Shown piece after piece: positions 37,611 through 53,532 of a stretch of 64,000 nucleotides of DNA. Below the pieces are notes generated by a model. The model was not told where the DNA came from, did no database searches, and saw only the letters and a program-made list of their open reading frames with translations. The translations under genes were made by a program, and so were the position numbers. Position 1 is the first letter of the stretch. Each line of letters begins with the position of its first letter. The stretch covers positions 124,001 to 188,000 of the forward strand of contig NZ_CP107930.1 of assembly GCF_036021035.1 (NCBI RefSeq), in the 5' to 3' direction. The stretch comes from Kineococcus sp. NBC_00420. GTDB lineage: Bacteria > Actinomycetota > Actinomycetes > Actinomycetales > Kineococcaceae.

Positions 37611-38243
37611 ATGGTCCAGGACTGCGATCATGCAGTGGTGGGACAGCCCGGCACCGATCGACACGACGTCGACCAACCCTTCGACGACACCGCGACGACC
37701 AGGCTGTCGCTACGCCGACCGACCGAAGCCGACGTCGCTGAACTCTTCACGATGTACTCCGACCCCCAGGTCTGGCGCGATGACCCGCTGCTGCGCCACA
37801 CCTCCGCCGCACAGACCCGCGACCGGGTCCAGCGCTGGGCCGAGAGCTAGGACGAGCACGGCATCGGCCCCTGGGTACTGCGAGCCCGGACCGGGCCTGG
37901 AGCCGGTGAGCTGGTCGGCTCCGGTGGCTGCAGCCTGTACACGTCGGGCACGACCACCGTGTGGAACACGGCCTTCGTGCTGCGGCCCCAGGCGTGGGGG
38001 CAGGGGTACGCCCAGGAGGTCACCGCAGCAGGACGCCGGTGCGCGCACGCGCTGCACCCTGACCTTCCCGTCATCGCTGTGGTCGCGGCCGGCAACCCCC
38101 GATCGCGACGAGCCGTAGAGCGCACCGGACTGCGCACGGTCTGTCGAGGTCCGGATGCCAAAGACCCCGACCCGACGGCGGAACTGCTGCTCTACGCCGA
38201 CCGCGGACTGAGCGAAGACCAGGTACGTGCACTCACCGCCTGA
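37611..38243 (+). pseudogene. GNAT acetyltransferase with in-frame amber stop
   Basis: One frame from 37611 to 38243 encodes a full GNAT domain: TTRLSLRRPTEADVAELFTM at the start, then the acetyl-CoA region WNTAFVLRPQAWGQGYAQEV, then VAAGNPRSRRAVERTGLRTV. A single TAG at 37848-37850 (after QRWAES, before DEHGIGPWVLRA) interrupts it without a frame change. It is either a recent nonsense mutation or a sequencing error. Alternatively a shorter protein could start after the stop, but it would lack the first strand. Confidence 0.85.
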
Positions 38244-38306
38244 CAGTCACGACCTCACGGTCCAGAACCTCGTCGCGCCCTGGCAACTCGCCTCTACGCT
38301 GCCCCG

Positions 38307-39035
38307 GTGATGAACCAGCCGGTGAACGACGCTGCCGTGACGATGCTCATCGCGGTTGCTCGCGCCGCCATCCGCGAGCACGGTGACAGCAACGTTCACA
38401 CCGTCGCCGCGGCCGTCCTGGACGAGGATGCCCGCGTCCACCTCGGGTTGAACCTGTACCACTTCACCGGTGGGCCCTGCGCCGAGCTCGTCGCTTTGGC
38501 CAACGCCCGTGCCGCCGGCGCTCGAGCTCCCCGCCTCATCGTCGCCGTCGGCGACGACAACCGCGGTGTGCTCGCCCCCTGCGGACGAGACCGGCAGGTC
38601 CTGGTGGACTACTACCAAGCCATTTCCGTCGTCCTTCCCGGCCCCGATGGTCCGCGCGTGGTGACGGGCGACGACCTGCTGCCCCACACCTACCGCTGGC
38701 AGGCGCAGCAGACCCAGCGTCTGCGCTTCCGCGCCTCTCACCTGCCGGCGGTCCGCAACGGCAGCAAGCGCGTCACCCTGCGTTTCAACGACCCGGCGCA
38801 GGTCGGCCCAGCGCTACTGGTCTTCGAGTCCGGCGACGTCGACGACGAGGTCACCCTGGCGGGCCGGATCACTTCCACTGTCGCCAAGACCGTCCAGGAC
38901 ATCAGCGACGCGGAGGCCCAAAAGGACGGCTTCGCTGACGCGGCCAGCGTGCTTCCCGGCCTGCGTGACTACTACCCCGACCTGTCCAGCGACGACTACG
39001 TCGTCTTCGTCCACTTCGAGGTCGACGCGACCTGA
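38307..39035 (+). CDS. Cytidine deaminase-like domain fused to ASCH domain
   Basis: 242 residues. Residues 1-110 look like a blasticidin-S/cytidine deaminase fold: VHTVAAAVLDEDARVHLGLN, then TGGPCAELVALANA with Cys58-Ala-Glu60, then LAPCGRDRQVLVDYY. In cytidine deaminases the second motif is PCGxCRQ. Here Cys92 is kept but the other ligand is Asp95. Residues 140-240 form an ASCH domain: HLPAVRNGSKRVTLRFNDPA, VAKTVQDISDAEAQKDGFAD, LRDYYPDLSSDDYVVFVHFE. ASCH domains bind RNA or modified nucleosides, so the fusion could act on cytidine in RNA or on a nucleoside antibiotic. The start may be the ATG at 38310. Confidence 0.8.
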   Translation: MMNQPVNDAAVTMLIAVARAAIREHGDSNVHTVAAAVLDEDARVHLGLNLYHFTGGPCAELVALANARAAGARAPRLIVAVGDDNRGVLAPCGRDRQVLVDYYQAISVVLPGPDGPRVVTGDDLLPHTYRWQAQQTQRLRFRASHLPAVRNGSKRVTLRFNDPAQVGPALLVFESGDVDDEVTLAGRITSTVAKTVQDISDAEAQKDGFADAASVLPGLRDYYPDLSSDDYVVFVHFEVDAT

Positions 39036-39085
39036 CCGCAGCTGCGGCATTGCGCGGTCATGTCGCGGGCCGCGCGGTTGCTGTG

Positions 39086-39961
39086 TCAGAGCCGGATCAG
39101 GTCGGCGACCTCCTCGGGCAGCCCCGGGGAGGTCATGACGTGGCCCATGCCCGGCACGACCTGCAGTACCGCCCCGGGGATGGCCGCGGCCAACGCCTCA
39201 CCGTGACCGAGCGGGTAGATCGGGTCCTGGTCCCCGTGGACGATCGAGGTCACCGCAGTGATCGACGACAGCGGGGCGAGCAAGCTGGGGTCATCCAGCC
39301 ACACGGCCCGGTGGTGGTGGGCAGCCGCCGCAGGATCGGTGGCCCGCGACATCGCCAGCTCCAGCATCGAACGGGCGGCCTTCTCGTCGAACGGGCGTAC
39401 CGGGCCGTTGAAGACTCGAAACAGCGCCACATCAGACTCGATACCCGCTGGCAGCTCCGCAGCCAGGTGCGTGAGGTAGGCCGGCGACGGGGGCGGCAGG
39501 TCATCAGGGTCGACCGGCTCCCCAACCTGTGCCCGCGCCCACACCGCGCTCGGGTCGTGACCCATCAGCGAGCTGGACATCACCGTCAGGGAACGGACCC
39601 GGTGCGGGGCGTGCACCGCCAACCACTGCGCGATCATGCCGCCCAGGGAGGTCCCGGCCACGTGGGCGGTATCCACGCCGTGACCGTCCAGCACGGCGAG
39701 ACAGTCCCGGGCCATGTCCCCGATCGTGTAGGGGTGGGCGTCGAAGTCGACGACGCTGGAGTGGCCGGTGTCTCGGTGGTCGAACCGGATGACCTGGACC
39801 CCACGCTGGACCAGCCGGTCGACCAGGGCGTCGGGCCAGCTGATCCCTTGAGCAGCCGATCCGGCGACCATCAGGACGGCGGGAAGCTCGGGATCACCGA
39901 CCGCTTCGCTCCAGATGCGTAGCGGCCCGGCCGCTACGAACCGTTCGCGTACACCCACCAT
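39086..39961 (-). CDS. Alpha/beta hydrolase
   Basis: 291 residues from the ATG at 39961 (MVGVRERFVAAGPLRIWSEA). The frame is open to 39988. The nucleophile elbow is AGTSLGGMIAQW, the acid lies in SIVHGDQDPIYP and the His in VPGMGHVMTSPG. The strand PAVLMVAGSAAQGISWP before the elbow provides the oxyanion-hole region. Close relatives are annotated as general hydrolases or esterases. There is no membrane segment or signal peptide. Confidence 0.9.
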   Translation of the reverse strand: MVGVRERFVAAGPLRIWSEAVGDPELPAVLMVAGSAAQGISWPDALVDRLVQRGVQVIRFDHRDTGHSSVVDFDAHPYTIGDMARDCLAVLDGHGVDTAHVAGTSLGGMIAQWLAVHAPHRVRSLTVMSSSLMGHDPSAVWARAQVGEPVDPDDLPPPSPAYLTHLAAELPAGIESDVALFRVFNGPVRPFDEKAARSMLELAMSRATDPAAAAHHHRAVWLDDPSLLAPLSSITAVTSIVHGDQDPIYPLGHGEALAAAIPGAVLQVVPGMGHVMTSPGLPEEVADLIRL

Positions 39962-39995
39962 GCAGGCACCGTAACGGCCACCTACCACCGAGCCG

Positions 39996-40062
39996 CGACC
40001 TCACGGTCATCCCGCGGTGCGCGTACTCTCCCCGGCGGCCGAGATGTCGCGGCCCTAACGAC
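39996..40062 (+). repeat. Dispersed repeat, A and B boxes
   Basis: GACCTCACGGTCATCCCGCG at 39998 is followed by GTGCGCGTACTC and the second block CGGCGGCCGAGATGTCGCGG about 45 bp later. It lies between two minus-strand genes. Confidence 0.85.
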
Positions 40063-40096
40063 GAGCGCGCGTCGGTGCGCGGCATCCACGCCACGA

Positions 40097-40378
40097 TCAA
40101 TCGCGGCCGCGCCAAGACCTGACCCTCTGCCCCCAGCGGGCCGCGTAAGGCGACAGAAAATTCAACACGGTTATCAGAGGAGCAAGAGCGATGGCGGTGC
40201 CACCGTCCACCCAGCCGAGCCACCAGCCCGCGACGGCGACCACAGCAGCACCCACGGCAGTCGCCGCCCCCGACCGGGCGACTTCACGACGTGACGGAGC
40301 CTGCAAAGAGGCGTCGGCGGGACGCGCGAGGCCCAGGTAGATCAAGGTGCGGGCCAAACGCCCAGCAGGCTGCGACAC
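40097..40378 (-). CDS. Small hypothetical membrane protein
   Basis: 93 residues. A polar N-terminus (MSQPAGRLARTLIYLGLARP) is followed by two membrane segments, SGAATAVGAAVVAVAGWWLG and GTAIALAPLITVLNFLSPYA, and a basic C-terminus. I recognise no family. Confidence 0.6.
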   Translation of the reverse strand: MSQPAGRLARTLIYLGLARPADASLQAPSRREVARSGAATAVGAAVVAVAGWWLGWVDGGTAIALAPLITVLNFLSPYAARWGQRVRSWRGRD

Positions 40379-40468
40379 GTCAGCACTCTAGGAGTCGGCC
40401 AGTGATCAGCAGGGTCGATCCCGCTTAGCCCACCCAAACGCGCACTCAGGACGCCGGCCGCGACGCAC

Positions 40469-40494
40469 GACGTCACGGTCATCCCGCTGGTCGC
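40469..40494 (+). repeat. Dispersed repeat, box A copy
   Basis: GACGTCACGGTCATCCCGCT then GGTCGCG. The CCGCGG core is changed to CCGCTGG here, as also at 37521 and 62560. Confidence 0.8.
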
Positions 40495-40570
40495 GCCCGT
40501 ACGCCGCGGTGGCTGGGGCTGCTTTCGTTGGTCACGATCACGGATCAGTGGTTCAGGAGTCCATCCCTTA

Positions 40571-41308
40571 CTACCGGGACGGCGGGTGGAAGTCACTCGA
40601 TGGGTCGGTCCCGGCTGCCACCTGGACGTAGCGCACCTGCAGGGCCGACGCCAGCGCCCCGTCTGAGGTGGCTGAGTCCCCGATGACCGCGACTGGCTGC
40701 ACCCCGAGTCGAGCCGACCGTGAAGCGACCTCGTCATGGAAGCGGAGCTCTGACTTCTCCGCGCCGACTTCACCTGAGATCACCACATCGCGGAAGGTCG
40801 GCCCGAGTCCAGCCAGCTGGAGCTTGCGCCGCTGCAACCACGACGAGCCGTTCGTGACGCACCAGAGGTCGTGCGTCCTCGCCCAACTGCTCAAGGCGGC
40901 CGGCGCCCAGTCGAAGGTGCGGACCAGCTGCTCGCGGGTACCGCGGAAGCTCGCGCCGACTACCGCCGAGTCCTCCTCGGGAAGGATGCGGTTCCAGACC
41001 CTGGCCTGGTAGTCATCACCAGCGAGCTGCGTCGTCAGGTCGGGTACTGCAGCTCGGAAGTCGGTCCACAGGGCTTCCCAGGAGCTGACGCCGACCAAGG
41101 CCGGGGTGCTCCTCAGCCCGCTGGCCTGCCATTCACCGCGGACAACGCGCCACACGTCAGGCAAGCGCGTCGTCGCCGCGAAGGCCGCGAGTGTGGAGCT
41201 CATGGCCTGATCACGGGCGGCTGCGTCCGGGATGAGCGTGTCGTCGAGGTCGATCAGGAGCACGTCCACGGAGAGAACGGTAGGACAGCGCTTCGGTGGG
41301 TGCTGCAC
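40571..41308 (-). CDS. HAD-superfamily hydrolase
   Basis: 245 residues. Motif I is LLIDLDDTLIPD (Asp20, Asp22), motif II LWCVTNGSSWLQR, motif III the Lys in GEVGAEKSELRFH, motif IV VIGDSATSDGALA. A helical cap of about 90 residues follows motif I, as in subclass C1 phosphatases. These act on small phosphorylated metabolites in the cytosol. The substrate is unknown. The frame begins at 41308, but a GTG at VDVLLIDLDDTL is also possible. Confidence 0.87.
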   Translation of the reverse strand: MQHPPKRCPTVLSVDVLLIDLDDTLIPDAAARDQAMSSTLAAFAATTRLPDVWRVVRGEWQASGLRSTPALVGVSSWEALWTDFRAAVPDLTTQLAGDDYQARVWNRILPEEDSAVVGASFRGTREQLVRTFDWAPAALSSWARTHDLWCVTNGSSWLQRRKLQLAGLGPTFRDVVISGEVGAEKSELRFHDEVASRSARLGVQPVAVIGDSATSDGALASALQVRYVQVAAGTDPSSDFHPPSR

Positions 41309-41353
41309 GGCCGGTTCGTCTTCGAGCCGGTGGCTGGACAGCCATGTTCTGAC

Positions 41354-41407
41354 GACTTCACGGTCATCCCGCGGTGCTCGGGCGCACGGTCATCCCGCGG
41401 TGTGCGT
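41354..41407 (+). repeat. Dispersed repeat, two A boxes; B box interrupted downstream
   Basis: GACTTCACGGTCATCCCGCG at 41354 and GCGCACGGTCATCCCGCG near 41382 are 29-30 bp apart. The expected B box starts about 41420 (GACGCCGACCGGATCTG) but is cut by the left recombinase element. Its apparent remainder, GTCGATGTCCG, lies beyond the element at about 43900. Confidence 0.8.
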
Positions 41408-41515
41408 GGTCGGCCCGGGTCGACGCCGACCGGATCTGCTTGATATGTGGGTGATCGGAGGCCACTCTCCGGTCTGAGCCCAGATGGGCTCGAGTCCTCA
41501 GCATGGAGGCACCCC

Positions 41516-42625
41516 ATGACCGTCCCTGATCTTCAACTGACCCAGACCCCGATGCCCTCCGGACTGCCCGCCGTGCGCCTCGGTGAGCCCTGGCTGGACG
41601 CCTACCTCGACTTCCTCACCGCACGCTGCCGACCCAACAGCGTCCTCGCCGCCGGCTACGACCTGAAGATCTTCTTCACCCTCATCGCCAAGACCCCGGC
41701 GGAGGTCACCGCCGCCGACGTACTGGCATTCATCACCGCCCAACGCACCGGTTCCGACCAATCCAGCAACCTCGTGGTCGCCGTCGTCGACGACGCGCCC
41801 GCAGCGGTCAGCGCCCGAACCGTGCGCCGACGCCTCTCCAGCATCTACGGCCTCTACGCCTTCCTCCTCGCCCGCGGCGACGTCAACGCCAACCCCGTTC
41901 CGCGTGGTCTGCCAACACGGCGCGAACGCGACCACCCCCACAGCAGCCGCGGGTCGGGAACCCCACTGATCCGTTCCCCACGGACGCTGCCGACCATCCT
42001 GAACCCCGACGAAGCCGCCGCCCTCACCACGGCGCTACGCACCCACCGAGACCGGGCCATGGTCGCCGCGATGCTGCTCGGAGGCTTGCGCCGTTGCGAA
42101 GTCCTGCGCCTGCGGATGGAAGACCTCCACGTTAGCCAACGGCGGGTGTTCATCGCCGAGGGCAAAGGAGGACACCAACGCCAGGTCCCGATCTCGAAAC
42201 GTTTCTTCACCCTGCTGGGCGACTACCTCAGCCTGGAGCGACCGGAGGAAGCCGACCGGCTCGGGCACGGTCACGTCTTCTGCGTCCTGAAGGGCCCCCG
42301 ACGCGGGCAGCCGCTGTCGGCCTCCGGACTTGATGAGGTCCTCGACGGAGCCCGGCGGCGCGCCGGACTGCAGCACGCCACCTGCCACCAACTGCGTCAC
42401 ACCTGCCTGACCCGACTGCGCGAAGCCGGCATGGCTCTGGAGGCCATCCAGGCCCAGGCCGGGCACGCCTCCATCGAATCCACCCGCATCTACCTCCACC
42501 TCGGTGATGACTGGCTGGCCGGTCAGTATCGCCGCGCTGCTGAAGCCATCGACGCTCAAGCCTTCGGCAACCACCCCGCGCCGGTGCCCGTCCGTTCGAT
42601 CACTTCAGCATTGCGGAGTCGGTGA
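41516..42625 (+). CDS. Tyrosine recombinase A of the left element
   Basis: 369 residues from the ATG at 41516. An N-terminal SAM-like core-binding domain (WLDAYLDFLTARCRPNSVLA) precedes a catalytic domain with Arg in GGLRRCEVLRLR, Lys in AEGKGGHQRQVPIS, HQLRHTCLTRLREAG (H-x-x-R), GHASIESTRIYLHL (His and nucleophile Tyr). All catalytic residues are present. Its stop overlaps the next start as TGATG, so the two recombinases are co-translated. It is the counterpart of 46773-47912. Confidence 0.93.
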   Translation: MTVPDLQLTQTPMPSGLPAVRLGEPWLDAYLDFLTARCRPNSVLAAGYDLKIFFTLIAKTPAEVTAADVLAFITAQRTGSDQSSNLVVAVVDDAPAAVSARTVRRRLSSIYGLYAFLLARGDVNANPVPRGLPTRRERDHPHSSRGSGTPLIRSPRTLPTILNPDEAAALTTALRTHRDRAMVAAMLLGGLRRCEVLRLRMEDLHVSQRRVFIAEGKGGHQRQVPISKRFFTLLGDYLSLERPEEADRLGHGHVFCVLKGPRRGQPLSASGLDEVLDGARRRAGLQHATCHQLRHTCLTRLREAGMALEAIQAQAGHASIESTRIYLHLGDDWLAGQYRRAAEAIDAQAFGNHPAPVPVRSITSALRSR

Positions 42626-43871
42626 TGAGCACTCAAGACCTGATTCTCACTTGGGGTGAGATTGACACCGCTGCAGTACAACTGGCCCCACCGATGCGTT
42701 CCTACCTGGTTCAGGTTGCCACCACGCTGCGTCCCGGTAGTGTCGTCAACGCCGACCGCGCCCTGCGCTGCTTCGCCCAGTTCCTCATCCAGCAGCACCC
42801 CGAGATCAGCACCCTCACCGACGTGCGACGAACTCACATCGAGGATTACAAGCCCTGGCTCGCATCGGCCAGCGAGGCCGGCCCGTCAGCGTCAACACCC
42901 GAGCCCACCGCCTGGGCAACCTACGCACCTTTTTCATCCGCATCCACGACTGGGGCTGGCCCGAGGCCCCACCCACCGTCCCCATCCTCTTCGGCGACCT
43001 GCCCCGCCAGGAGCAACCCCTCCCCAAGGCCCTCGATGACGCCAACGCCGCGAAGTTCCTGCGCGCCGCTCAAGGATTGAAACGGCAGCTGGGTCGAGTG
43101 GTCTGCGAGGTCCTCCTCCGCACCGGCCTGCGCGTCGGGGAGTTCACCAGACTGCGCCGCGACGCCGTCCGCCAGATCGGCGCCGGGCACTGGTTGCACG
43201 TTCCCGTCGGCAAACTCCTCGACGACCGCTACATTCCCCTGCACCCGCAACTCGTCGACCTCATCGCCGATTACCGCGACCGTTTCGTCGACCCGACCAA
43301 CCCGCTGCTGCTACCGCGGGAGAACGGCAAACCGATGGATCGCCACGGCGTCACCCGCTGCCTGAACAACGCCGCCACCGCGGCGGGCATCGGCCACGTC
43401 CACCCCCACCAGATGCGCCACACCCTCGCCACCCAGGCCATTAACCGCGGCATGAGCCTCGAAGCCATCGCCGCGATGCTGGGGCACCACTCGATGGACA
43501 TGACCCTGCGCTACGCGAAGATCGCCAACCGGACCGTCGCCGATGAGTACTTCGCCGTCACCGAGAAAGTCGAAGCCCTTTACACCAGCGACCCCGACGC
43601 CGCTCTGCCCTCGAGCGCCGCTGGTCCGGAGATGGCCCGCCTGCACCGCGAGATGCACCAGCGGATGCTCGGCAACGGGTTCTGCACTCGACCTCCGGCC
43701 TTGGACTGCACCTTCGAATCGGTCTGCGAAACCTGCACCTTCTTCCAGACCTCGATCGCCTTCCGCCCGACCTTGCAGGCTCAGCACGACCACGCCGCCG
43801 AGCATGATCAACCGGCCCGTCAGGAGCTCTTCGCGGGTCTCCTCGGCGACCTCGACCAGTCCGCGTCCTGA
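42625..43871 (+). pseudogene. Tyrosine recombinase B of the left element, frameshifted
   Basis: The first frame (42625 on) matches the intact partner at 45490-46776 through HIEDYKPWLA. It then leaves it near 42885, where the partner has GKPVTAATRAHRLGNLR and this copy has the same text one frame back (RPVSVNTRAHRLGNLRTFFI). From there to 43871 the frame is open and complete, with TGLRVGEFTRLRRDAV, HPHQMRHTLATQAINRG, LGHHSMDMTLRYAKI and the Cys-rich tail ALDCTFESVCETCTFFQTSI. A net one-base change therefore inactivates this copy, unless it is a read error. Confidence 0.88.
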
Positions 43872-44059
43872 GTCCCTTGACACCGATCACCCACATAATG
43901 TCGATGTCCGAGTGGTCACGGAGTCGTTGTGGGCTCCTGCGGGTGGTGGTCCTGTGGAGAAGTTGATCAACGAATCGGGCTGAGCTCGGCACCCGCCGAT
44001 GCTGAAAGTACCTCGACAGTTCGAGCCTCCGCACCCCTCTCACCGCCCAGGAGCAGCAC

Positions 44060-44434
44060 GTGCCCGACGGCTCGACCCTGATCTGCCGCCTGATCGGCGG
44101 GTTCATGATCCTCACCGCCCCCTTAGCGCTGCCGTTGCTGTTCTTTCAGGCCGACCTCTTCGGCATCGAGAGCGACTTCTGCATCTACAAGGGCGTCAGC
44201 CCGCGTGTCCCCCTTGAACAGCGTGTCCTCGAGCGCGGCGTCGACGTCCGCCAGCACTGGGAGTGGTTCCCCATGGGGGTGCGCTGCGACTGGTTCCTGC
44301 GTGATGGCAGCTTCGTCACCACCACGGCCGCCACCTGGGACCACGACGCCCTCGCTGGCGGCGCAATCGGCTATGGACTGCTGGGCCTGACGCTGGTGGT
44401 GGCACCCCGAATCAAGATCGGCGCGGACGCCTAG
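44060..44434 (+). CDS. Small membrane protein between the inverted elements
   Basis: 124 residues from a GTG at 44060 with AGGAG about 8 bp upstream. One membrane segment lies at the N-terminus (GGFMILTAPLALPLLFFQAD) and one at the C-terminus (GGAIGYGLLGLTLVVAPRIK). The Cys- and Trp-containing loop between them (SDFCIYKG, HWEWFPMGVRCDWFLRDGSF) is probably extracytoplasmic. Family unknown. Its 3' end overlaps that of the next, convergent gene by 4 bp. Confidence 0.6.
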   Translation: MPDGSTLICRLIGGFMILTAPLALPLLFFQADLFGIESDFCIYKGVSPRVPLEQRVLERGVDVRQHWEWFPMGVRCDWFLRDGSFVTTTAATWDHDALAGGAIGYGLLGLTLVVAPRIKIGADA

Positions 44435-44748
44435 CTGACCGACCTGCCACCGCTACGCCTCACCACAGCGGTGACCACCTGGTACGGCACGACCGCGACC
44501 ACCAAGATGATCGCCAGCCGAGCCCAGAAGGGCAGCGTCGAATCAGCCGATGCGACGCCGGCCATCGTGATGAAGGCCAGAGCCGCGACGTCGAAGACTC
44601 TGGGCCAGCCGTGCTGACGTGGGTCCCTTTCCCACGAGGCTCGCTCTGGAGCAGGCCGAGCGTGCATCCAGGCGGAGAGGGCCGAGAAGAGAGCCGCCGG
44701 CACCAGCCACAGCATCCAGATCACACCGTCATGATCCTGGACTCCCAC
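44431..44748 (-). CDS. Small three-TM membrane protein
   Basis: 105 residues with segments VIWMLWLVPAALFSALSAWM, VFDVAALAFITMAGVASA and WARLAIILVVAVVPYQVVTA. The start is a GTG at 44748, with an internal ATG at 44715 possible. I recognise no family. Confidence 0.55.
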   Translation of the reverse strand: MGVQDHDGVIWMLWLVPAALFSALSAWMHARPAPERASWERDPRQHGWPRVFDVAALAFITMAGVASADSTLPFWARLAIILVVAVVPYQVVTAVVRRSGGRSVS

Positions 44749-44788
44749 GCGAATGCCAGCGCCATCTAACGACGATGAGCCGACCGGG

Positions 44789-44814
44789 CGACCTCACGGT
44801 CATCCCGCGCTGGT
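44789..44814 (+). repeat. Dispersed repeat, box A copy
   Basis: GACCTCACGGTCATCCCGCG then CTGGTCGCG, between two minus-strand membrane-protein genes inside the region bracketed by the recombinase elements. Confidence 0.8.
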
Positions 44815-44835
44815 CGCGCTTCGTCAGCGTCAGCG

Positions 44836-45402
44836 TCAGGCGTCCAGCGCGGCCAACACGGGCCCTAATGATGCAGGCAAGACCACAGCCAAGCGCACCC
44901 GCGCCCCACTGGTCGTGACGAGGTCGACGATGCGTGCGTCTGTACCCACCCGCAACGACTCCCGGAATGTGGGATCACGTGGACGCGTATGGCTGGACAC
45001 CATGAAAGAGATGGTCCTGTCTTGTCTCCGCTGAGAGGCGAACCGACTTCGATCGAGGTCGACGTGACCGCTCGTCAAGGTCACGTGACCCATCGTCCAG
45101 CGAGCTCCCACACCGGGGACGATGCCCTCCACGACGCTTACACCACACAAGATCTTGCCTCGAGACGTTTCCCGTCCCGACTGTCGGCGACGAATCCACG
45201 GGGTGACCGCCGCGATGAAGGTGGCTGACACCGCCACCCCACCAGCGCGACTCCAGCGATCCGAAGTCGGCACTCCGAACACTGCGGCGACGACCCAGCC
45301 CAACCCGAAGGTCACGACCGCTGTCACAGCGAGTGAGACCACCGCCGTACCCCACCCAGCGTGGTCCTCTTGCTTGTTCACCTGCACATGCTGGCCTGTC
45401 AC
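44836..45402 (-). CDS. Hypothetical membrane-anchored protein
   Basis: 188 residues. Two membrane segments lie near the start (WGTAVVSLAVTAVVTFGLGW and AGGVAVSATFIAAVTPWI), then a soluble domain rich in strands (KILCGVSVVEGIVPGVGARW, TMGHVTLTSGHVDLDR, ARIVDLVTTSGARVRLAVVL). The soluble part faintly resembles the DUF2550 layout, but I do not claim it. Third gene of the cargo between the inverted elements. Confidence 0.55.
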   Translation of the reverse strand: MTGQHVQVNKQEDHAGWGTAVVSLAVTAVVTFGLGWVVAAVFGVPTSDRWSRAGGVAVSATFIAAVTPWIRRRQSGRETSRGKILCGVSVVEGIVPGVGARWTMGHVTLTSGHVDLDRSRFASQRRQDRTISFMVSSHTRPRDPTFRESLRVGTDARIVDLVTTSGARVRLAVVLPASLGPVLAALDA

Positions 45403-45442
45403 CAGGGAAGAGGTGCATCGATCACCCAGATGGACGCACCTT

Positions 45443-45463
45443 CGACTTCACGGTCATCCCGCT
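45443..45463 (+). repeat. Dispersed repeat, left half of a copy split by the right element
   Basis: GACTTCACGGTCATCCCGC runs directly into the TATGTGGG end of the right recombinase element. The matching second half, GCGGTGCGCGC, resumes at 47991 on the other side. The element therefore interrupted this copy. Confidence 0.8.
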
Positions 45464-45489
45464 TATGTGGGTGATCGGTGTCAAGGGGG

Positions 45490-46776
45490 TCAGGACGCGG
45501 GCTGGTCGAGGCCTCTGAGGAGGCCCGCGAAGAGCTGCTGACGCCCTTGTTGATCATGTTCGGCGGCGTGGTCGTACTGGGCCTGCAACGTCGGTCGGAA
45601 GGCGATCGAGGTCTGGAAGAACGTGCAGGTCTCGCAGACCGACTCGAAGGTGCAGTCCAGCGCCGGAGGTCGTGTGCAGAAGCCATTGCCCAGCATCCGC
45701 TGATGCATCTCGCGGTGCAGGCGGGCCATCTCCGGGCCGGCCGCGGAGGCCGGCAACGCAGTGTTCTCGCCGTCGAGGTTGTCGGGGTCGTGGGCGGCGT
45801 AGAGCGCTTCGACCTTCTCGGTGACGGCGAAGTACTCATCAGCGACGGTCCGATTCGCGATCTTGGCGTAGCGAAGGGTCATGTCCATCGAGTGATGCCC
45901 CAGCAGGGCAGCGATGGCTTCCAAACTCATGCCGCGGTTGATGGCCTGAGTGGCCAGGGTGTGGCGCATCTGATGGGGGTGGACGTGGCCGATGCCGGCG
46001 GCGGTGGCGACGTTGTTCAGGCAGCGGGTGACGCTGTAACGGTCCATGGGTATGCCGTTCTCCCGCGGCAACAGCAGCGGGTGGGCAGGGTCGACGAAGC
46101 GGTCACGGTAATCGGCGATGAGCTCGACCAGTTGGGGGTGCAGCGGGATGTAGCGATCGTCGAGGAGTTTGCCGACAGGAACGTGCAGCCAGTGCCCAGC
46201 ACCGATCTGGCGGACCGCGTCGCGGCGCAGACCGGTGAACTCCCCGACGCGCAGTCCGGTGCGGATCAGGACCTCGCAGATGACCCGCTCGAGCAGACGC
46301 GGTCGGGTCTGCGCGGCGCGCAGGAACTTCGCGGCGGCGGCATCGTCCAGGGCCTTCGGCAGGGGTTTCTCCTGCCGCGGCAGGTCACCGAAGAGAATGG
46401 GAACCGTGGGTGGGGCCTGCGGCCAGTCCCAGTCGCGGATGCGGATGAAGAAGGTGCGTAGGTTGCCCAGGCGGTGGGCGCGGGTGGCGGCGGTGACGGG
46501 TTTCCCGCGCTGGTTGGTGCGGGCGGCCAGCCAGGGCTTGTAGTCCTCGATGTGGACGCGACGAACGTCAGCCAAGCGGGTGATCTGAGGGTGTTCCTGG
46601 AACATGAACTGGGTGAAGCAGCGCAGCGCTATGTCGGAGTTACGGACACTGCCGGAGCGCAAGGTGGTGGCGATCTGCCTCAGGTAGGCGTGCATGGGAA
46701 CGGTCAGCTCTGTTGCGTCACCCATTGCCTCAGAGTCGATCTCGGCCCAGCTAAGGAAGCGGTCGGGTTGCTTCAT
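45490..46776 (-). CDS. Tyrosine recombinase B of the right element
   Basis: 428 residues, intact. N-terminal core-binding domain (VPMHAYLRQIATTLRSGSVR and HIEDYKPWLAARTNQRGKPV). The catalytic domain has Arg in TGLRVGEFTGLRRDAV, HPHQMRHTLATQAINRG, then LGHHSMDMTLRYAKIANRTV with the nucleophile Tyr. A C-terminal extension of about 75 residues carries a Cys cluster (GFCTRP, DCTFESVCETCTFF), probably zinc-binding, seen in some transposon-type recombinases. It is coupled to recombinase A by a 4-bp overlap. Confidence 0.93.
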   Translation of the reverse strand: MKQPDRFLSWAEIDSEAMGDATELTVPMHAYLRQIATTLRSGSVRNSDIALRCFTQFMFQEHPQITRLADVRRVHIEDYKPWLAARTNQRGKPVTAATRAHRLGNLRTFFIRIRDWDWPQAPPTVPILFGDLPRQEKPLPKALDDAAAAKFLRAAQTRPRLLERVICEVLIRTGLRVGEFTGLRRDAVRQIGAGHWLHVPVGKLLDDRYIPLHPQLVELIADYRDRFVDPAHPLLLPRENGIPMDRYSVTRCLNNVATAAGIGHVHPHQMRHTLATQAINRGMSLEAIAALLGHHSMDMTLRYAKIANRTVADEYFAVTEKVEALYAAHDPDNLDGENTALPASAAGPEMARLHREMHQRMLGNGFCTRPPALDCTFESVCETCTFFQTSIAFRPTLQAQYDHAAEHDQQGRQQLFAGLLRGLDQPAS

Positions 46777-47912
46777 CGCCGACCTCGCAGTCCCATGACC
46801 GTTGACGTGATCGGTGAGATGACCTCGGGAGTGGGTGGAGCAGTGCGGTGGCCAGCGAACGCTTGAGCATCGATGGCTTCGGCGGCGCGGCGATACTGCC
46901 CCGCCAGCCAGTCATCGCCGAGGTGGAGGTAGATGCGGGTGGATTCGATGGACGCGTGACCGGCCTGGGCCTGGATCGCTTCCAGGGCCATGCCCGCTTC
47001 GCGCAGCCGGGTCAGGCAGGTGTGACGCAACTGATGGCAGGTGACGTGCGCCAGGCCGGCGCGACGCCGTGCTCCGTCGAGGACCTCGTCGAGTCCCGAG
47101 GCCGACAGTGGGTGCCCGCGGCGGGGACCCTTGAGAACGCAGAAGACGTGTCCGTGCCCCAACTGGTCGGCTTCGGCTGGGCGTTCGAGGCTGAGGTAGT
47201 CGCCGAGATGGGTGAAGAACCGCCTGGAGATCGGGATCTGGCGTTGGTGTCCGCCTTTGCCTTCGGCGATGAATACCCGCCGTGCCCCGACGTTCAGGTC
47301 CTCCAGGCGCAGGCGCAGGACCTCGCAGCGACGCAAACCCCCGAGCAGCATCGCGGCGACCATGGCGTGGTCGCGGTGGGTGCGCAGGGCAGAGGTGAGA
47401 GCGTCGGCTTCGTCGGGGTTCAGGATGACCGGCAGGGTCCGCGGGGAGCGGACCAGCGGGGTTCTCGATCCGCGACTGCTACGGGGCTGGTCGTGTTCGC
47501 GCCGTGTCGGCAGGCCGAGGGGGACGGGGTTGGCGGTGATGTCGCCGCGGGCGAGGAGGAAGGTGTAGAAACCGTTGATGCTGGACAACCGGCGTCGAAC
47601 GGTGCGGGCACTGACCCCTCCAGCAGCGTCGGCGTCGGCGACGACGGCGATCACCGGGCCGAGCACTTCCGCTGATCCTGTTCGCTGGGCGGTGATGAAA
47701 CCCAGCACGTCGGCGGCGGTGACCTCCGCCGGGGTCTTGGCGATGAGGGTGAAGAAGACCTTCAGGTCGTAGCCGGCGGCCAGGACGCTGTTGGGTCGAC
47801 AGCGGGCGGTGAGGAAGTCGAGGTAGGCGTCCAGCCAGGGCTCACCCAGGCGCACGGCGGGCAGTCCGGAGGGCGTCAGTCCTTGGGTCAGTCGAAGATC
47901 CAGAACGGTCAT
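46773..47912 (-). CDS. Tyrosine recombinase A of the right element
   Basis: 379 residues starting MTVLDLRLTQGLTPSGLPAV. It is nearly the same as the protein of 41516-42625, with catalytic GGLRRCEVLRLRLEDL, EGKGGHQRQIPIS, HQLRHTCLTRLREAG and GHASIESTRIYLHLGDDW. Differences cluster in the linker around residues 95-150 and in the tail. The leader between the element end (47985) and the start is about 70 bp and matches that of the left copy. Confidence 0.93.
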   Translation of the reverse strand: MTVLDLRLTQGLTPSGLPAVRLGEPWLDAYLDFLTARCRPNSVLAAGYDLKVFFTLIAKTPAEVTAADVLGFITAQRTGSAEVLGPVIAVVADADAAGGVSARTVRRRLSSINGFYTFLLARGDITANPVPLGLPTRREHDQPRSSRGSRTPLVRSPRTLPVILNPDEADALTSALRTHRDHAMVAAMLLGGLRRCEVLRLRLEDLNVGARRVFIAEGKGGHQRQIPISRRFFTHLGDYLSLERPAEADQLGHGHVFCVLKGPRRGHPLSASGLDEVLDGARRRAGLAHVTCHQLRHTCLTRLREAGMALEAIQAQAGHASIESTRIYLHLGDDWLAGQYRRAAEAIDAQAFAGHRTAPPTPEVISPITSTVMGLRGRR

Positions 47913-48026
47913 GAGGGTGCCTCCACGCTGAGGACGTCGAGCCGGTGAGGCTCAGACCGGAGGTTAGCCCCCGATCACCCACATATCATCGCGGTGCGCG
48001 CAAGGTCAGCCGCTACGGTTACGCCG

Positions 48027-48578
48027 GTGCGAATCCCCACCTCATCTTCAGCGGCCCTGCTGATCACCGGCACCGTCGGGTCAGGCAAGACGACCACCGC
48101 CGGATGTGTCGGCGCACTGCTGCGTGAAGGGGCGACCCCTTATGCCGTCGTCGACCTCGACGCGCTCCGCGATGCATGGCCCAGCCCCCGATCTGACCCC
48201 TTCTATGAGCAGTTGATGCTGGCGAACCTGCGCGACGTGGCCCGCAACCACCTCGCCGCCGGTGCGCGCCGCCTCGTCCTGGCCGGGGTACTCGAGGACC
48301 CCGCGAAACGTCCCCTGTACGAGCAGGCTGTTGGAGTGCCGCTGACGGTATGTCGTCTGCGCGTGGACCTGTCCGACGTCACGGCGCGCTTGCGTCAGCG
48401 ACACCGCGACGACCGCGACGCCTTGGACTGGTACCTGCACCGCAGCGGAGAACTAGACGCGATCCTCGACGCGGCGGGCATCGGTGATGTCGAGGTGGAG
48501 GTGGCGGCTGGGCAGGTCCCATCCCAGGTGGCACGGGCAGTGGCCGTTGCCGTCGGATGGGACGCCGACGCCGACTGA
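48027..48578 (+). CDS. P-loop kinase-like ATP-binding protein
   Basis: 183 residues from a GTG at 48027. An open frame reaches back to 47994, but that part is the dispersed repeat. Walker A is ALLITGTVGSGKTTTAGCVG. YAVVDLDALRDAWPSPRSDP and RRLVLAGVLEDPAKRPLYEQ fit a small-molecule or nucleotide kinase such as those in the chloramphenicol phosphotransferase/AAA_33 group. The lid-like TARLRQRHRDDRDALDWYLH follows. Substrate unknown. Confidence 0.75.
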   Translation: MRIPTSSSAALLITGTVGSGKTTTAGCVGALLREGATPYAVVDLDALRDAWPSPRSDPFYEQLMLANLRDVARNHLAAGARRLVLAGVLEDPAKRPLYEQAVGVPLTVCRLRVDLSDVTARLRQRHRDDRDALDWYLHRSGELDAILDAAGIGDVEVEVAAGQVPSQVARAVAVAVGWDADAD

Positions 48579-48596
48579 CAATCGCTGACCGCCGCC

Positions 48597-48672
48597 ACCT
48601 CACGGTCATCCCGCGTTGTGCGCACTGTCGCTGGCGGCCAACGACGTCACGGTCCAGACGATGACCGAGGCG
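48597..48672 (+). repeat. Dispersed repeat, full A+B unit
   Basis: ACCTCACGGTCATCCCGCGT at 48597, then TGTGCGCACTGTCGCTGGCG, then GCCAACGACGTCACGGTCCA ending GACGATGACCG. This is one of the best complete copies. The A and B boxes start about 46 bp apart. Confidence 0.88.
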
Positions 48673-48697
48673 TCGTCTGCTCGGGAACACTGAAGCG

Positions 48698-49225
48698 GTG
48701 GACCCGCTCTACCGCGCCCGAGCCCGAGCACACGTCGGCGATCTGCCGCCTGAGCTGATAACCCAGTGGGCAGCCCTAGCCCTGACCCGCGGCTACGACT
48801 CACCGACCCTGCGCGAACTCGCCGGCGCCCCAGACGATCCACCCACCTTGCGCGACCTGCTCACCACCGCCCTTGACGAGCTCGGCGCCCCGCGCCTGAA
48901 CGACCACCAAGCGCTGTGGGTCATGGCCCACACCCACGCCCGCGCCGTTGTCGACGGCCTCATCAGCCCTGAAGAGGGCGCCGAGCTGCTGTGGCACATC
49001 GCCCGCGACCTGGGCTACCCCGACCAACTGGCCTTCTTCGTCAACGAGGCCACCGACTGGGAGTACGCCTGGGAGCTGGACCACGATGAGAGCAGGCGAG
49101 ACATCGTCGAAGAGGCTGGCACTCTGCTGGCGACCATCACCGCCGAGACGCTCGATCAGGAGCCTGACCCGGCTCGCCTGCCCGTCTACTGGCACGAGGT
49201 GGACGAGCTACCTACGACTGAGTGA
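48698..49225 (+). CDS. Hypothetical protein
   Basis: 175 acidic, mostly helical residues from a GTG at 48698 (MDPLYRARARAHVGDLPPEL). Phrases such as ALWVMAHTHARAVVDGLISP, EEGAELLWHIARDLGYPDQL and ATDWEYAWELDHDESRRDIV recall small actinobacterial proteins of unknown role. There is no membrane segment and no catalytic motif I can name. Confidence 0.65.
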   Translation: MDPLYRARARAHVGDLPPELITQWAALALTRGYDSPTLRELAGAPDDPPTLRDLLTTALDELGAPRLNDHQALWVMAHTHARAVVDGLISPEEGAELLWHIARDLGYPDQLAFFVNEATDWEYAWELDHDESRRDIVEEAGTLLATITAETLDQEPDPARLPVYWHEVDELPTTE

Positions 49226-49265
49226 GCCCCAGCGCACCTGTTTCGCGGCGCTATCGCCCTGCAAG

Positions 49266-49400
49266 CGACGTCACGGTCATCCCGCGGTGCGCGCGAAGCG
49301 CACGGTCATCCCGCGGTGCGCGCGAAGCGCACGGTCATCCCGCGTTGTGAGCGCTGCCCCGGCGGCCAGCGACTTCACGGACATGACGATCTGCGGAAGG
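49266..49400 (+). repeat. Dispersed repeat, three tandem A boxes plus B box
   Basis: CACGGTCATCCCGCG starts at 49272, 49301 and 49330, a strict 29-bp period with GCGCGAAGCG between units. The B box (GGCGGCCAGCGACTTCACGG then ACATGACGAT) follows. It lies between two plus-strand genes. Confidence 0.9.
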
Positions 49401-49511
49401 TCGGCCAAGGCCACCCGCAGGACCGACGACCATGGCCAAGGCGCTGGTCCGTAACCCGGGCCCTGCGACGTCCACACCCACGAAAGAGTCGCCTTCAGCT
49501 AGCGTTCGTCC

Positions 49512-49871
49512 ATGGTTGAGCGCACTGCTGACCGCGTCGTCGTACCCGACGTCGTCGGACTGCCGTTCCACATAGGCGAAGACCTGGCTCGAGACGCCGG
49601 CGTGACCCTGGCCAACCCCGACCCTGACGGACCACCAATCGGTGCCCTCGCCTGGCCAGGCCTCTTCTACATCACCGCCCAGCACCCCGCTCCGGGGACC
49701 GAGCTGTACCGCTGGGACTCAGTCGCTGTGGACATCACGGCACACGGGGATGCTGAGTCCACCGCCCCACTCTTGCCGCCCAGCACTCCGCCCAGCGATC
49801 GAGTCCACGCCAACCCCAGCGCGGAACCTCACCAGCTGTATGGCCGCATGTCACACCAGCACGGGGCTTGA
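49512..49871 (+). CDS. PASTA-domain protein
   Basis: 119 residues. One PASTA-like domain spans about 9-75: VVVPDVVGLPFHIGEDLARD, AGVTLANPDPDGPPIGALAW, then AQHPAPGTELYRWDSVAVDI. PASTA domains bind peptidoglycan fragments in penicillin-binding proteins and Ser/Thr kinases, but here the domain stands alone without a membrane anchor or signal peptide. A Pro-rich tail follows. Confidence 0.7.
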   Translation: MVERTADRVVVPDVVGLPFHIGEDLARDAGVTLANPDPDGPPIGALAWPGLFYITAQHPAPGTELYRWDSVAVDITAHGDAESTAPLLPPSTPPSDRVHANPSAEPHQLYGRMSHQHGA

Positions 49872-49909
49872 GGACAGAGCAGTACCCCGCGGCCGTCACG
49901 CTCCACGAG

Positions 49910-49962
49910 CGACGTCACGGTCATCCCGCGATGCGCGCGCAGCGCACGGTCATCCCGCGACC
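49910..49962 (+). repeat. Dispersed repeat, two A boxes
   Basis: GACGTCACGGTCATCCCGCG at 49911 and CACGGTCATCCCGCG near 49944, joined by ATGCGCGCGCAGCG. They lie between convergent genes. Confidence 0.85.
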
Positions 49963-50033
49963 AGGACGTTCCGAGTGGCATCCCGTTCAGGCAAATCTGA
50001 ACGAGGTCAGGACGGCCCCGAGAGTGCCAAGCG

Positions 50034-50612
50034 CTACAACGGGACCTCCACCTCGATCGAATCCCCCGCGAGACCGAGACGAAGGCGCAACCACTTCGCC
50101 TCCACCGGCGGCAACGGGGCGAAGAAGCGCTGCCCCAGCCAGTCAGTGCCTGAACCTCCCGCGTTAGCTCCCTCGGTCGAGTAGACGGTCCCCACGTCAT
50201 CAGTGACCTCGACAACCACCTCGAACAGTCGAGTACCGGGCTGCTCCGGCGCAGCCTCACCCCGTTCCCGTCCGACCTCAGCCCACTCGGCGAACGCCTG
50301 CTCGTACTCAGCAAGCACGGCATCGCGTCGCGGGGAAGGCTCCACGTCCAGACCCACCACGACATGGGTGTCCACCCGCACGCCGATCAGGCGCACGGAG
50401 AGACCTGCGACCACCCCGACGGTCACGGGGGCCGTTGGCCCAAGTCGACGCACCGGGACTGCGTCGACCTTCACGACGAACACCTGCTCCTCCTGGCCAT
50501 AGTCGAGACGAAACGCGCCCGGACCCAAGCGTCGTCCTGCACGGTTCGGGACGTCCTCACCGTTGCGGGCGTGGGTGAGCAGCTGGCTCAGGACAGACTC
50601 GGCGTCAATCAC
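50034..50612 (-). CDS. Hypothetical protein
   Basis: 192 residues, strand-rich: EEQVFVVKVDAVPVRRLGPT, APVTVGVVAGLSVRLIGVRV, GTRLFEVVVEVTDDVGTVYS. It has a helical insert QAFAEWAEVGRERGEAAPEQ and a C-terminal VEAKWLRLRLGLAGDSIEVE. No signal peptide. Family unknown. Confidence 0.6.
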   Translation of the reverse strand: MIDAESVLSQLLTHARNGEDVPNRAGRRLGPGAFRLDYGQEEQVFVVKVDAVPVRRLGPTAPVTVGVVAGLSVRLIGVRVDTHVVVGLDVEPSPRRDAVLAEYEQAFAEWAEVGRERGEAAPEQPGTRLFEVVVEVTDDVGTVYSTEGANAGGSGTDWLGQRFFAPLPPVEAKWLRLRLGLAGDSIEVEVPL

Positions 50613-50781
50613 TCGAGGAACGCTAGCCAGTCCCCGGATCTCACCGTCGGGGGTTCAGACACCTTGCAGCTACGCAGCAGTCGAAAGTCAGCAGGTCCGT
50701 GCCAGCGATGCTCTTGCGGTCTTGCAGCAACCGGGACGAAACCACCGCCGCCGCACCCCCCGGACTGTCATCCTCTCGATC

Positions 50782-51207
50782 ATGGCTCCCAGGACACGCA
50801 GTCTGCTGGCTCTTGGCACGGCATCACTCGCCCTCACCGTCCTGACCAGCTGTGGCACCTCCACACCTGACGCCGACGCCGTCATCGCCGGCTCGCATGA
50901 CCTCCTGGCTTCCTCCCAACAACAACTACTGCTGGGTCCCGTTCCAGGAACCGGATCAGAATCGCTACCCGACTTCACCGTCGATGGCGCCTACGAGGTC
51001 AAGGTCCGCTGCATCGGAGACGGCGCAGCCTCCATCACCATCGACGGCCAAAACCACGACCCCGGAAACTGCAGCGACGGCATGACCGGCCTCAGCAGCG
51101 AGGCAACAGGACAGTCGGTCCACGTCAGCGTCGACGGCTCAGAGGACCTCTACTGGGTCGCTGCCGTCTTCAGGTGCACCCAGACAGAGTCCACCCTCTC
51201 CTGCTGA
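50782..51207 (+). CDS. Small secreted lipoprotein
   Basis: 141 residues from the ATG at 50782. The upstream extension of the frame to 50563 lacks coding character. The signal peptide MAPRTRSLLALGTASLALTV ends in a lipobox LTSC, so it should be anchored on the cell surface. The mature part has a pair of Cys in VKVRCIGDG and DPGNCSDG and another at VFRCTQTESTLSC, perhaps two disulphides. Function unknown. Confidence 0.75.
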   Translation: MAPRTRSLLALGTASLALTVLTSCGTSTPDADAVIAGSHDLLASSQQQLLLGPVPGTGSESLPDFTVDGAYEVKVRCIGDGAASITIDGQNHDPGNCSDGMTGLSSEATGQSVHVSVDGSEDLYWVAAVFRCTQTESTLSC

Positions 51208-51329
51208 ACCACATCACCTCGAGGAACGGAACGCTCGCTCATGTCGATGTCCGCACGATGGACGCTCGAGTCGATGAGCCCCACTTGCTCGTGCTTCACC
51301 CAGCTGCATCGCGTGGGTAGCGTCACCAC

Positions 51330-52034
51330 ATGAACCACCGCAGACTCGTCGACGGTTGGGCCGCGTGGTTGCTCATCCTTGCGGCCGCGTTGCCGACAGT
51401 CGTGACCATCGGCCTCGGCTGGTTGGCGTTCAGCGGCTACTGGGACAGCGGGCCCGCTCTATCCCGAGCTACGACGGGGAGGGAGCTGCTCGCGTACCGC
51501 TGGTCCAGCTTCTGGTTCAGCAGCCCCGCCATCACCACCTTGCTCCTGACGGGTCTGCTCCCACTGCTCGTCCTCGCCATCACTGCGGTCATGAACCGTC
51601 CACGTGCCCTCCTCCTCACAGGCGCCGGTCGTAATGCTGCAACGGCTGTCGGTGGCGTCACCATCGTGCTGGGCCTAATCGAGGTCGCTGGTTTCGTGGC
51701 TCAGCTCACGCGTTGGCTACCCATGCACGCCTGGGCTGGCATCTCACTATCTGAGCTGATCACCTTCACGCCTTTCGCCGTGTTCGCTCTCAGCAACACG
51801 GTCCTGAGTGTCGTCGTCACGGCTCTCTTGCGGCGTGTGAAGGGGCCTACCGAGCAGCTGGCCATCGACGAAGCTTCCGGGGTGGCCGTTGTCGGGGTGG
51901 CCGAGGAGGAAGAAGCAGCTCAGCCGAGCCTCGCGTCCGAGGTTGCCGATGCCAAAGCGGGAACGTTCCAACTGAAGAAGCCGCCGGCCATGCCCACCCC
52001 ATCAGCCGCCGACCTCGACCTGTACCGACGCTGA
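51330..52034 (+). CDS. Hypothetical four-TM membrane protein
   Basis: 234 residues. Segments: AAWLLILAAALPTVVTIGLG, ITTLLLTGLLPLLVLAITAV, AVGGVTIVLGLIEVAGFVAQ and ITFTPFAVFALSNTVLSVVV. A polar tail of about 65 residues (AEEEEAAQPSLASEVADAKA) should be cytoplasmic. I recognise no family. Gene-like start at the ATG at 51330. Confidence 0.65.
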   Translation: MNHRRLVDGWAAWLLILAAALPTVVTIGLGWLAFSGYWDSGPALSRATTGRELLAYRWSSFWFSSPAITTLLLTGLLPLLVLAITAVMNRPRALLLTGAGRNAATAVGGVTIVLGLIEVAGFVAQLTRWLPMHAWAGISLSELITFTPFAVFALSNTVLSVVVTALLRRVKGPTEQLAIDEASGVAVVGVAEEEEAAQPSLASEVADAKAGTFQLKKPPAMPTPSAADLDLYRR

Positions 52035-52213
52035 CGTTCACCGACGACGTTTAACCGGTGGAGTCACGTCTGCAGGCAGCAGTCAGACCGCAATGCGCGC
52101 TGGCGCGCGGTCATACTGCGATGAGCGCGGACGTCAGCTGCTGGCGACGTCGCATCGTGCCGATGAGCGAACGGTGAGTCCATCCCGCGGAGAACGACCG
52201 GGTGGACATCACT

Positions 52214-52612: not shown

Positions 52613-52683
52613 TCTCGCTCCTCCGGTCACTCACTCCTCCCGAGCTCAGGTCGAGCGATCTCAGGATGGCACTTCGACGATCG

Positions 52684-52765
52684 GGACCTCACGGTCATCC
52701 CGCGTTGTGTGCGCTGCCGCTGGTGGTCGGCGACGTCGCGGTCTTGTCGATGTCCGGACGCAAGC
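52684..52765 (+). repeat. Dispersed repeat, full A+B unit
   Basis: GACCTCACGGTCATCCCGCG at 52686, TTGTGTGCGCTGCCGCTGGT, then GGTCGGCGACGTCGCGGTCT and TGTCGATGTCCG. Complete copy with the A and B boxes 45 bp apart. Confidence 0.88.
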
Positions 52766-52872
52766 CCGACCTTGGGGGCCACCCCTCAGCACCTACAGGT
52801 AGGCATGCCGAACCGGTAGGAGCGGCTGCCCCTCAGCTACCGCGAAGCACCACCGCTTGCACCTGCAGCGCC

Positions 52873-53346: not shown

Positions 53347-53429
53347 GCGTCGTTGCGCCCCTTCCGGAGTCAGTGATCACGACCTGTCACCCGGCCGACG
53401 TTAGTGGCTACCCATGGTCGTCGCCGCCG

Positions 53430-53503: not shown

Positions 53504-53532
53504 AGGCGGTCAGCGGCCGCTGAATCGGCGGC

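Follow-up and report, generated by a model that had tools for sequence, protein, structure and literature searches.

The window analysed here is a stretch of 64,000 nucleotides from Kineococcus sp. NBC_00420 (positions 124001-188000 of a genome of one contig, 5,434,400 bases), and it holds two copies of a short element in which the genes of two tyrosine recombinases, A and B, lie between terminal inverted repeats (TIRs). Copy 1 spans 41444-43897 of the window on the plus strand (2454 bp from TIR to TIR) and copy 2 spans 45464-47985 on the minus strand (2522 bp). The TIR, TATGTGGGTGATCGG, is found exactly at 41444(+), 43883(-), 45464(+) and 47971(-). If up to three mismatches are allowed, the window contains six matches, where shuffled sequence has 1.34 on average (six were reached in 2 of 100 shuffles), and with at most one mismatch it occurs at 11 places in the whole genome, where the reversed control pattern has none. 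The copies are inverted and 81.8% identical over 2,528 alignment columns. Two inverted units with short TIRs had been proposed at these coordinates in a sequence-only reading of the window, which the four exact 15-bp ends and this identity bear out.

In copy 1 the left, A-end TIR (41444-41458, plus strand) is followed by gene A (41516-42625, plus), with an intact frame, and by gene B (42622-43871, plus), which is broken: its N-terminal part is read in the frame of 42622-43080 and its C-terminal part, in the open reading frame (ORF) 43077-43871, in a different one, with the frame change near 42855-42890. The right, B-end TIR (43883-43897, minus) has A at 43898 as its outer base. Copy 2, the only intact copy in the window, consists of the B-end TIR (45464-45478, plus), gene B (45490-46776, minus; 428 aa), gene A (46773-47912, minus; 379 aa) and the A-end TIR (47971-47985, minus). 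Both copies have the A-then-B order and ORF overlaps of 4 nt, as the sequence-only reading had it for two coupled recombinases per unit, but B of copy 1 is frameshifted. A, B and the TIRs fill the whole unit and TnpC is not present.

Both proteins match PF00589 (Phage_integrase): A with 4.1e-32 and 4.2e-34 (the latter for copy 1), B with 9.2e-25, and the C-terminal part of the broken B with 4.4e-25. Residues R194/R195, K219, H293, R296 and Y328 of A are present in 15/15 aligned rows and H319 in 14/15; R176, K203, H268, R271, H294 and Y303 of B are present in 17/17. We take these, by motif, to be the catalytic residues, and A and B, with the exception of B in copy 1, thus look catalytically complete. 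The C-terminal cysteine cluster of B, already noticed in the sequence-only reading, comprises C367, C375, C381 and C384, all four conserved in the 17 aligned B proteins. In Tn554 the second, longer gene is tnpB, and this naming is adopted here: A is TnpA-like and B a short-form TnpB-like protein. The 428 aa of B lie in an open frame of 473, its full-length short-B relatives have 413-448 aa, and the N-terminal extension of about 190 residues of long TnpB proteins (about 600 aa or more) is missing. The AlphaFold model of B has a mean predicted local distance difference test (pLDDT) score of 68, falling below 50 in the cysteine region; among PDB structures it comes closest to Xer, integrase and Cre proteins, and the model is uninformative on the cysteine cluster.

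The genome has six copies of gene A and six of gene B, of which five are intact and one is broken. The four copies beyond the window lie at genome 77604-80125 (c5), 469442-471975 (c3), 2798815-2801348 (c4) and 5353813-5356346 (c6). Copies 2-6 are 97.5-100% identical to each other, while the degenerate copy 1 is 81-82% identical to the other five. Between c3 and c4 the identity is 100% across 2,534 bp although their flanks differ, which shows by comparison that the unit moves alone. Isolated copies, for which the sequence-only reading had proposed to look, thus exist; their borders fall at the TIRs, and none of them carries a third gene. No near match to the element was found in the plasmid collection. 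Solo or deleted element ends were also seen, at genome 39880 (L042) and 73070 (L044) and, in another species of the genus, at about 7327 of L107; the latter remnant implies that the element family once visited that species. In addition, TATGCGGGTGATC ends are present at window 63054-63068 and at genome 70907, 72437 and 206119, where the sequence inside differs and is loosely shared (e.g. TTGCACCCGGACATCGCC at 70907); they perhaps mark the termini of another, related element or belong to a long form of the repeat described next.

The element sits in a dispersed repeat. Genome-wide, the core of this repeat, CACGGTCATCCCGC, is present 147 times without mismatch (70 forward, 77 reverse), and the reversed pattern does not occur. 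Copies 2-6 are inserted at one position and in one orientation, each in a separate copy of the repeat, and read along it as ACGGTCATCCCGC-T, B end ... A end, TCAT-CGCGGTGCGCG; the 22-bp repeat core at the insertion site is GCGCACCGCGGGATGACCGTGA. For copy 2, the left part of the repeat (CGACTTCACGGTCATCCCGC) and the outer base T of the element at 45463 occupy 45443-45463 (plus strand). On its other side, 47986-48005 (minus strand) holds ATGA (47986-47989), probably borne by the element, followed by the right-hand remainder of the interrupted repeat (CGCGGTGCGCGC, read on the plus strand). When the flanks of copies 2-6 are joined without the element and the presumed travelling bases, they give GCGCACCGCGGGATGACCGTG(A/C), a 22-mer which recurs uninterrupted 14-16 times in the 379 kb compared. 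For copy 1 the insertion point, ACCGGATCTG/TCGATGTCCG, falls within the right half of a repeat of this type, and its joined site differs from the nearest uninterrupted one (72464) at 3 of 26 positions. Joined flanks recreate an intact repeat in five of the six copies.

Of 297 genomes of the order, three have B at E<=1e-60 (its own and two from other families), and the 10 other genomes of the genus are all negative, with the five best candidates scored per genome. A further scan yielded 19 loci, of which 17 are titled Actinomycetota, and plasmid relatives are present in Nocardioides and Rhodococcus (among the matches listed; 30 of 688 records, eight examined). Work on ends and tree was done without L076-L080, which are fragments or a distant recombinase; L087 equals L088 in its proteins, and L084 likewise equals L085. 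A lies upstream of B wherever there is enough sequence, L083 keeping only a fragment of A. B is 62-68% identical to the full-length short-B relatives, 50-53% to long-B proteins (605-644 aa; L060, L071, L083-L085) and 34% to TnpB of pBD2, a Tn554-like reference and not Tn554 itself.

An inverted pair of TATG-NN-SGTRATC type (TATGNNSGTRATC type) brackets the genes in 15 of 23 loci, with one outer base off in L068 and L071. In these 15 the A-end TIR lies about 64-73 bp before the estimated start of A, and the right end follows B after 8-22 bp in 11 and after 200-353 bp in four, which are distant relatives. Three more loci have the pair at two mismatches or fewer, bringing this TIR type to 18/23; the right end alone is found in L063, L074 and L083, and likewise in L060, which entered only this second comparison. 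Base-shuffled flanks of 14 loci yielded an end pair in 0 of 28,000 trials. Both pBD2-type loci (L087, L088; 34% identity) have another perfect inverted pair of 14 bp, TTGACCGGCTAATC; this Tn554-like element also carries a DUF6262 gene, which is taken as TnpC. A limited literature search, by title and start of abstract, gave no description of the short-B form or its ends.

The target of the long-B relatives was compared in three Rhodococcus copies (L084, L085, L086; the other long-B loci are L060, L071, L072, L082 and L083). All three lie in the same motif of a transposase orfA. Once their flanks are joined, the frame is continuous again through ILKRAASFF, ILKAATTFF and FLKKAAAFF, and the joined proteins match PF01527 with 3e-9, 4e-4 (below the cut-off) and 4e-18. 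The common ending, LKxAxxFF, is presumably the end of an IS3-type OrfA. Since the frame is restored, the net length of the insert is fixed and a target duplication is absent. Insertion of copies 2-6 and of the Rhodococcus copies is thus site-specific and proceeds without target duplication; Tn554 itself is reportedly inserted without target duplication, as the title of a 1984 paper states.

The bases just outside the ends behave differently at the two sides. For the 11 short-B junctions (ten relatives and copy 1, with the GCGATGA of copies 2-6 kept apart), TGCTTG[AT] stands outside the A end in ten and TGCTCGT in one, while the preceding base varies; in copy 1 the comparison places TGCTTGA at 41437-41443 (plus strand). 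Outside the B end a single base, A, is kept in 10 of 11, and the bases beyond it are partly variable. The near-constant TGCTTG[AT] is therefore probably carried with the element. Copies 2-6 have GCG-ATGA outside the A end, and ATGA is also found in the three Rhodococcus long-B copies. Pairing of the arms of the bacterial attachment site (attB) around an 8-bp spacer reaches 3.3 of 6 for a site's own arms and 1.2-2.0 for shifted arms; as cross-paired arms reach 3.0, this pairing reflects a shared consensus and is no proof for any one copy. The left and right attachment sites (attL and attR) align over the same 8 positions, so the exchange point is not fixed within them.

The tree of 47 rows places both proteins. 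A forms a single group with support 100/100 and B with 100/98; pBD2 TnpA joins A (93/87), pBD2 TnpB joins B (100/100), and both pairs stand together at 95/80. The comparison of A and B with TnpA/TnpB and RIT (recombinase-in-trio) candidates, which the sequence-only reading had called for, thus puts each gene with its Tn554-type counterpart. Outside A/B, at 83/79, stand two XerC/D-like proteins from the same genome, two others, and the recombinases of pHG1, which is reported to be a RIT-rich plasmid (PMC3414803); the XerC/D (own genome) and RIT (pHG1) labels are assumed. Three single recombinases, including that of the repeat array described below, are on the A/B side on long branches. L061 and L075 contributed A only, L060, L063, L083 and L086 B only, and L073, L074, L082 and L084 neither. 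There is no proteobacterial Tn554-like pair in the tree because pNL1 was unmatched at 1e-6.

Hence, we consider it highly probable that the element is a site-specific, Tn554-related transposon of the size of an insertion sequence (IS), with a TnpA-like A and a short TnpB-like B between TIRs of 13-15 bp, and that the pair in the window arose by independent insertion into two repeats that are neighbours in a repeat-rich array. From the junctions we suggest that A and B, acting as a heteromeric pair, would bind both TIRs and join them by recombination in a circle, with about 8 bp between CCGATCACCCACATA and TATGTGGGTGATCGG. The expected TIR-TIR junction is CCGATCACCCACATA-AGCGATGA-TATGTGGGTGATCGG, whose two halves are inverted about a spacer of some 8 bp, as in Xer or Cre core sites; the predicted spacer is A-GCG-ATGA in copies 2-6 and A-TG-CTTGA in copy 1. 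Recombination of the circle junction with the repeat would then use two or three bases common to both (GCG, TG). The outer bases of the A end would travel with the element and those of the B end would belong to the target. This split between the ends fits an exchange at one edge of the spacer.

Several points weigh against this reading. The mobility of the unit is deduced from the comparison of copies, while its excision, circle and transposition are predicted; the parts assigned to A and B, like the spacer of 8 bp, are derived from junctions only. The B-end TIR has two mismatches each in c5 and c6. The outer bases of the A end are split between ATGA in copies 2-6 and CTTG[AT], once CTCGT, in copy 1 and the ten relatives, which may mean two functional types. 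The tree tool gave a long-branch warning which names both pBD2 rows. Finally, SE elements and Tn554 are described as placing 6 donor bases at the far junction (PMC10214605), and the junctions of the element appear to point the opposite way: the 11 short-B junctions are nearly constant outside the A end and variable outside the B end, which would be opposite to a donor left-flank footprint at the new right junction. The details of the mechanism would thus differ from those of SE and Tn554, where the spacer goes to the far junction (PMC10214605).

The position of the element in array repeats, and TIR-like GATCACCCGCATA motifs near several of the repeat copies, could also mean that the two-recombinase element is itself the recombinase of a cassette array, i.e. 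an integron-like integrase. We regard this as improbable. A 14-mer of the repeat is present in 11/11 genomes of the genus, with 2 to 147 copies, but of these genomes only its own has B (at the threshold and with the candidates per genome given above); the element interrupts the repeat, and element-end remnants account for at least some of the TIR-like motifs.

The sequence-only reading had instead proposed a composite, with the inverted copies mobilising or inverting the 1.6 kb between them. The inverted geometry and the closeness of two similar copies speak for it, and the three small ORFs in the middle, which it took for membrane-protein genes, are there (44060-44434, plus; 44431-44748, minus; 44836-45402, minus), with no Pfam or NCBIfam match at E<=0.1 in any of them. 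The copies are, however, just 82% alike, one has a broken B, and they sit in different parts of the repeat with different junction bases, each with its own full left and right junctions. The first interval, 43898-44812 beside copy 1, is a cassette-like block with two small ORFs, of which the genome has element-free copies, one at 63318-64232 (97.3%) and a partial one at 202752-203298 (93.2%). A dispersed repeat of the target type lies at 44785-44819 (plus strand), and then comes a second interval with the 188-aa ORF 44836-45402; for this rest of the middle, up to 45463, no second copy was found among the stretches compared. The arrangement is absent at the other four copies, and in the one assembly nothing points to inversion of the middle. 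The bracketed-cargo proposal is thus very unlikely, and two separate insertions are the better reading of the pair. Least credible of all is a degenerate RIT minus one gene: it would share several adjacent tyrosine recombinases between inverted repeats, but A and B stand apart from the pHG1 recombinases (support just 83/79, identity with RitA/B/C assumed), and in 11/23 loci no more than 22 bp separate B from the right TIR, which leaves no room there for a third gene.

The repeats that carry the separate insertions form arrays. The oriented CACGGTCATCCCGC repeat runs through window 7753-62983 and through genome 39-223 kb, 373-432 kb and 462-474 kb, is found elsewhere too, and separates small genes. 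Counted as a 13-mer with at most one mismatch, its orientation is one-way along extended stretches: 65 copies are on the minus strand at 39-86 kb, 60 on the plus strand at 90-223 kb, 25 plus at 373-432 kb and 11 minus at 462-474 kb; in a stretch at 2.40 Mb, 4 are on the plus and 1 on the minus strand. Among 38 duplicated block pairs, 47 of 152 ends lie within 20 bp of a repeat, compared with 5.1 (maximum 18) for shifted ends. These pairs have at least 300 bp and at least 80% identity within the stretches compared, and blocks mostly in element copies were set aside. In a comparison with array stretches from three further species of the genus, 14 block pairs gave 21 of 56 ends at no more than 60 bp from a repeat, compared with 7.0 (maximum 14). 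A single tyrosine recombinase of 319-339 aa lies within the array (genome 65089-66045, minus strand, L043; also, in broken form, L045 near 96.5 kb and L047 near 205 kb) and occurs in 5/11 genomes of the genus, with full or near-full copies in other species 90-94% identical; it is a candidate for the recombinase of the array.

We tentatively suggest, at somewhat less than even confidence, that the repeats are attachment sites of an unrecognised integron-like cassette system of the genus, with large, one-way arrays whose cassettes would be duplicated and exchanged at repeats, and that the element would be a minimal Tn554-type parasite of these sites. The array data make an integron-like system plausible. 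Genes lie on both strands between the repeats, unlike the layout of typical integron arrays. A small element with a fixed target in a cassette repeat has a parallel in the IS1111-type elements which target integron attC sites; their DEDD transposase is unrelated. Folding of the repeat as an attC-like single-strand site was considered for six stretches and is unsupported (z-scores -1.88 to +1.91), and Rfam gave 0 matches on window 38000-54000. In Actinobacteria no complete integron, one integrase without cassettes and few attC clusters are reported (PMC9024848), and by title the literature searched gave no integron-like cassette system in this phylum. Two other features of this part of the window are five tandem copies, 27 bp apart, of the repeat variant CACGGTCATGGCGCGCTGCGTGTGTCT (54573-54693) and IS256-type transposase DNA (about 59411-60711), 80% identical to a Pseudonocardia plasmid copy; the plasmid matches to window 38000-62000 are of IS256 type (among the matches listed, 10 of 36).

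The element is the smallest Tn554-type machinery met in this work, with two short tyrosine recombinases and 15-bp ends. It allows a direct test of how labour is split between the two recombinases and of whether a long TnpB arm and TnpC are necessary. The fixed point at which it inserts identifies an important position in a cassette-boundary-like repeat, in a phylum reported without complete integrons (PMC9024848). The repeat array may be the larger finding and merits a study of its own.

Judged by its protein sequences, the element groups with the Tn554-related kind, with genes of TnpA and TnpB lineages in the order A then B. The sequence-only reading could not name such a two-gene unit; named kin do exist among Tn554-related actinobacterial pairs without TnpC (PMC3414803). 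The closest are Famint36 and Famint41 (Van Houdt et al. 2012, PMC3414803), alike in gene order and in the absence of TnpC and represented by pREL1 (Table 2 there). Identity to the pREL1 pair (L085) is 57% for A and 50% for B, and the TIR is of the same type, TATGTGGGTGATC being located in pREL1 by this analysis; the available text of PMC3414803 gives neither ends nor target for this group. The long partner, named TnpA in that paper, has 611-828 aa (PMC3414803), whereas element B has 428 aa, and the three pREL1-type copies lie in a transposase orfA, whereas the Kineococcus copies lie in a dispersed repeat.

With Tn554, Tn558, Tn559 and Tn6188 of Firmicutes the element shares the TnpA/TnpB-type pair and site-specific insertion (PMC3788773, PMC10214605). 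Unlike them, it has no TnpC and no resistance cargo, is of IS size and has clear TIRs; its target is a dispersed repeat instead of radC, and its junction bases seem not to follow the 6-bp footprint reported for Tn554. Tn6188 is described as having no flanking inverted repeats, and the ends of Tn554 as imperfect inverted repeats; the perfect TTGACCGGCTAATC pair of the pBD2-type element contrasts with the former description. SE elements of Gammaproteobacteria (intA-tfp-intB-srap; PMC10214605) also have two catalytic tyrosine recombinases, inverted repeats of 13-19 bp and a site preference, with the IS3 gene insJ among their targets. The element differs in that it has neither tfp nor srap and appears to keep the spacer bases at the A end, whereas SE moves them to the far junction. 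An assignment to SE was rejected, since SE requires four core genes and only two lie between the element TIRs. A DDE-type insertion sequence was likewise rejected, given the PF00589 recombinases and the absent target duplication, and so was a bipartite module (BIM), whose second protein is a non-recombinase. RITs are alike in adjacent tyrosine recombinases and inverted repeats, but have three genes and repeats of 28 to 34 bp (PMC3414803). Two-recombinase actinobacterial elements without TnpC are thus already known (pREL1; PMC3414803); what is new here is the short B, the presence of only A and B between the ends, the TIR type shared by 18/23 loci and the exact borders of the element.

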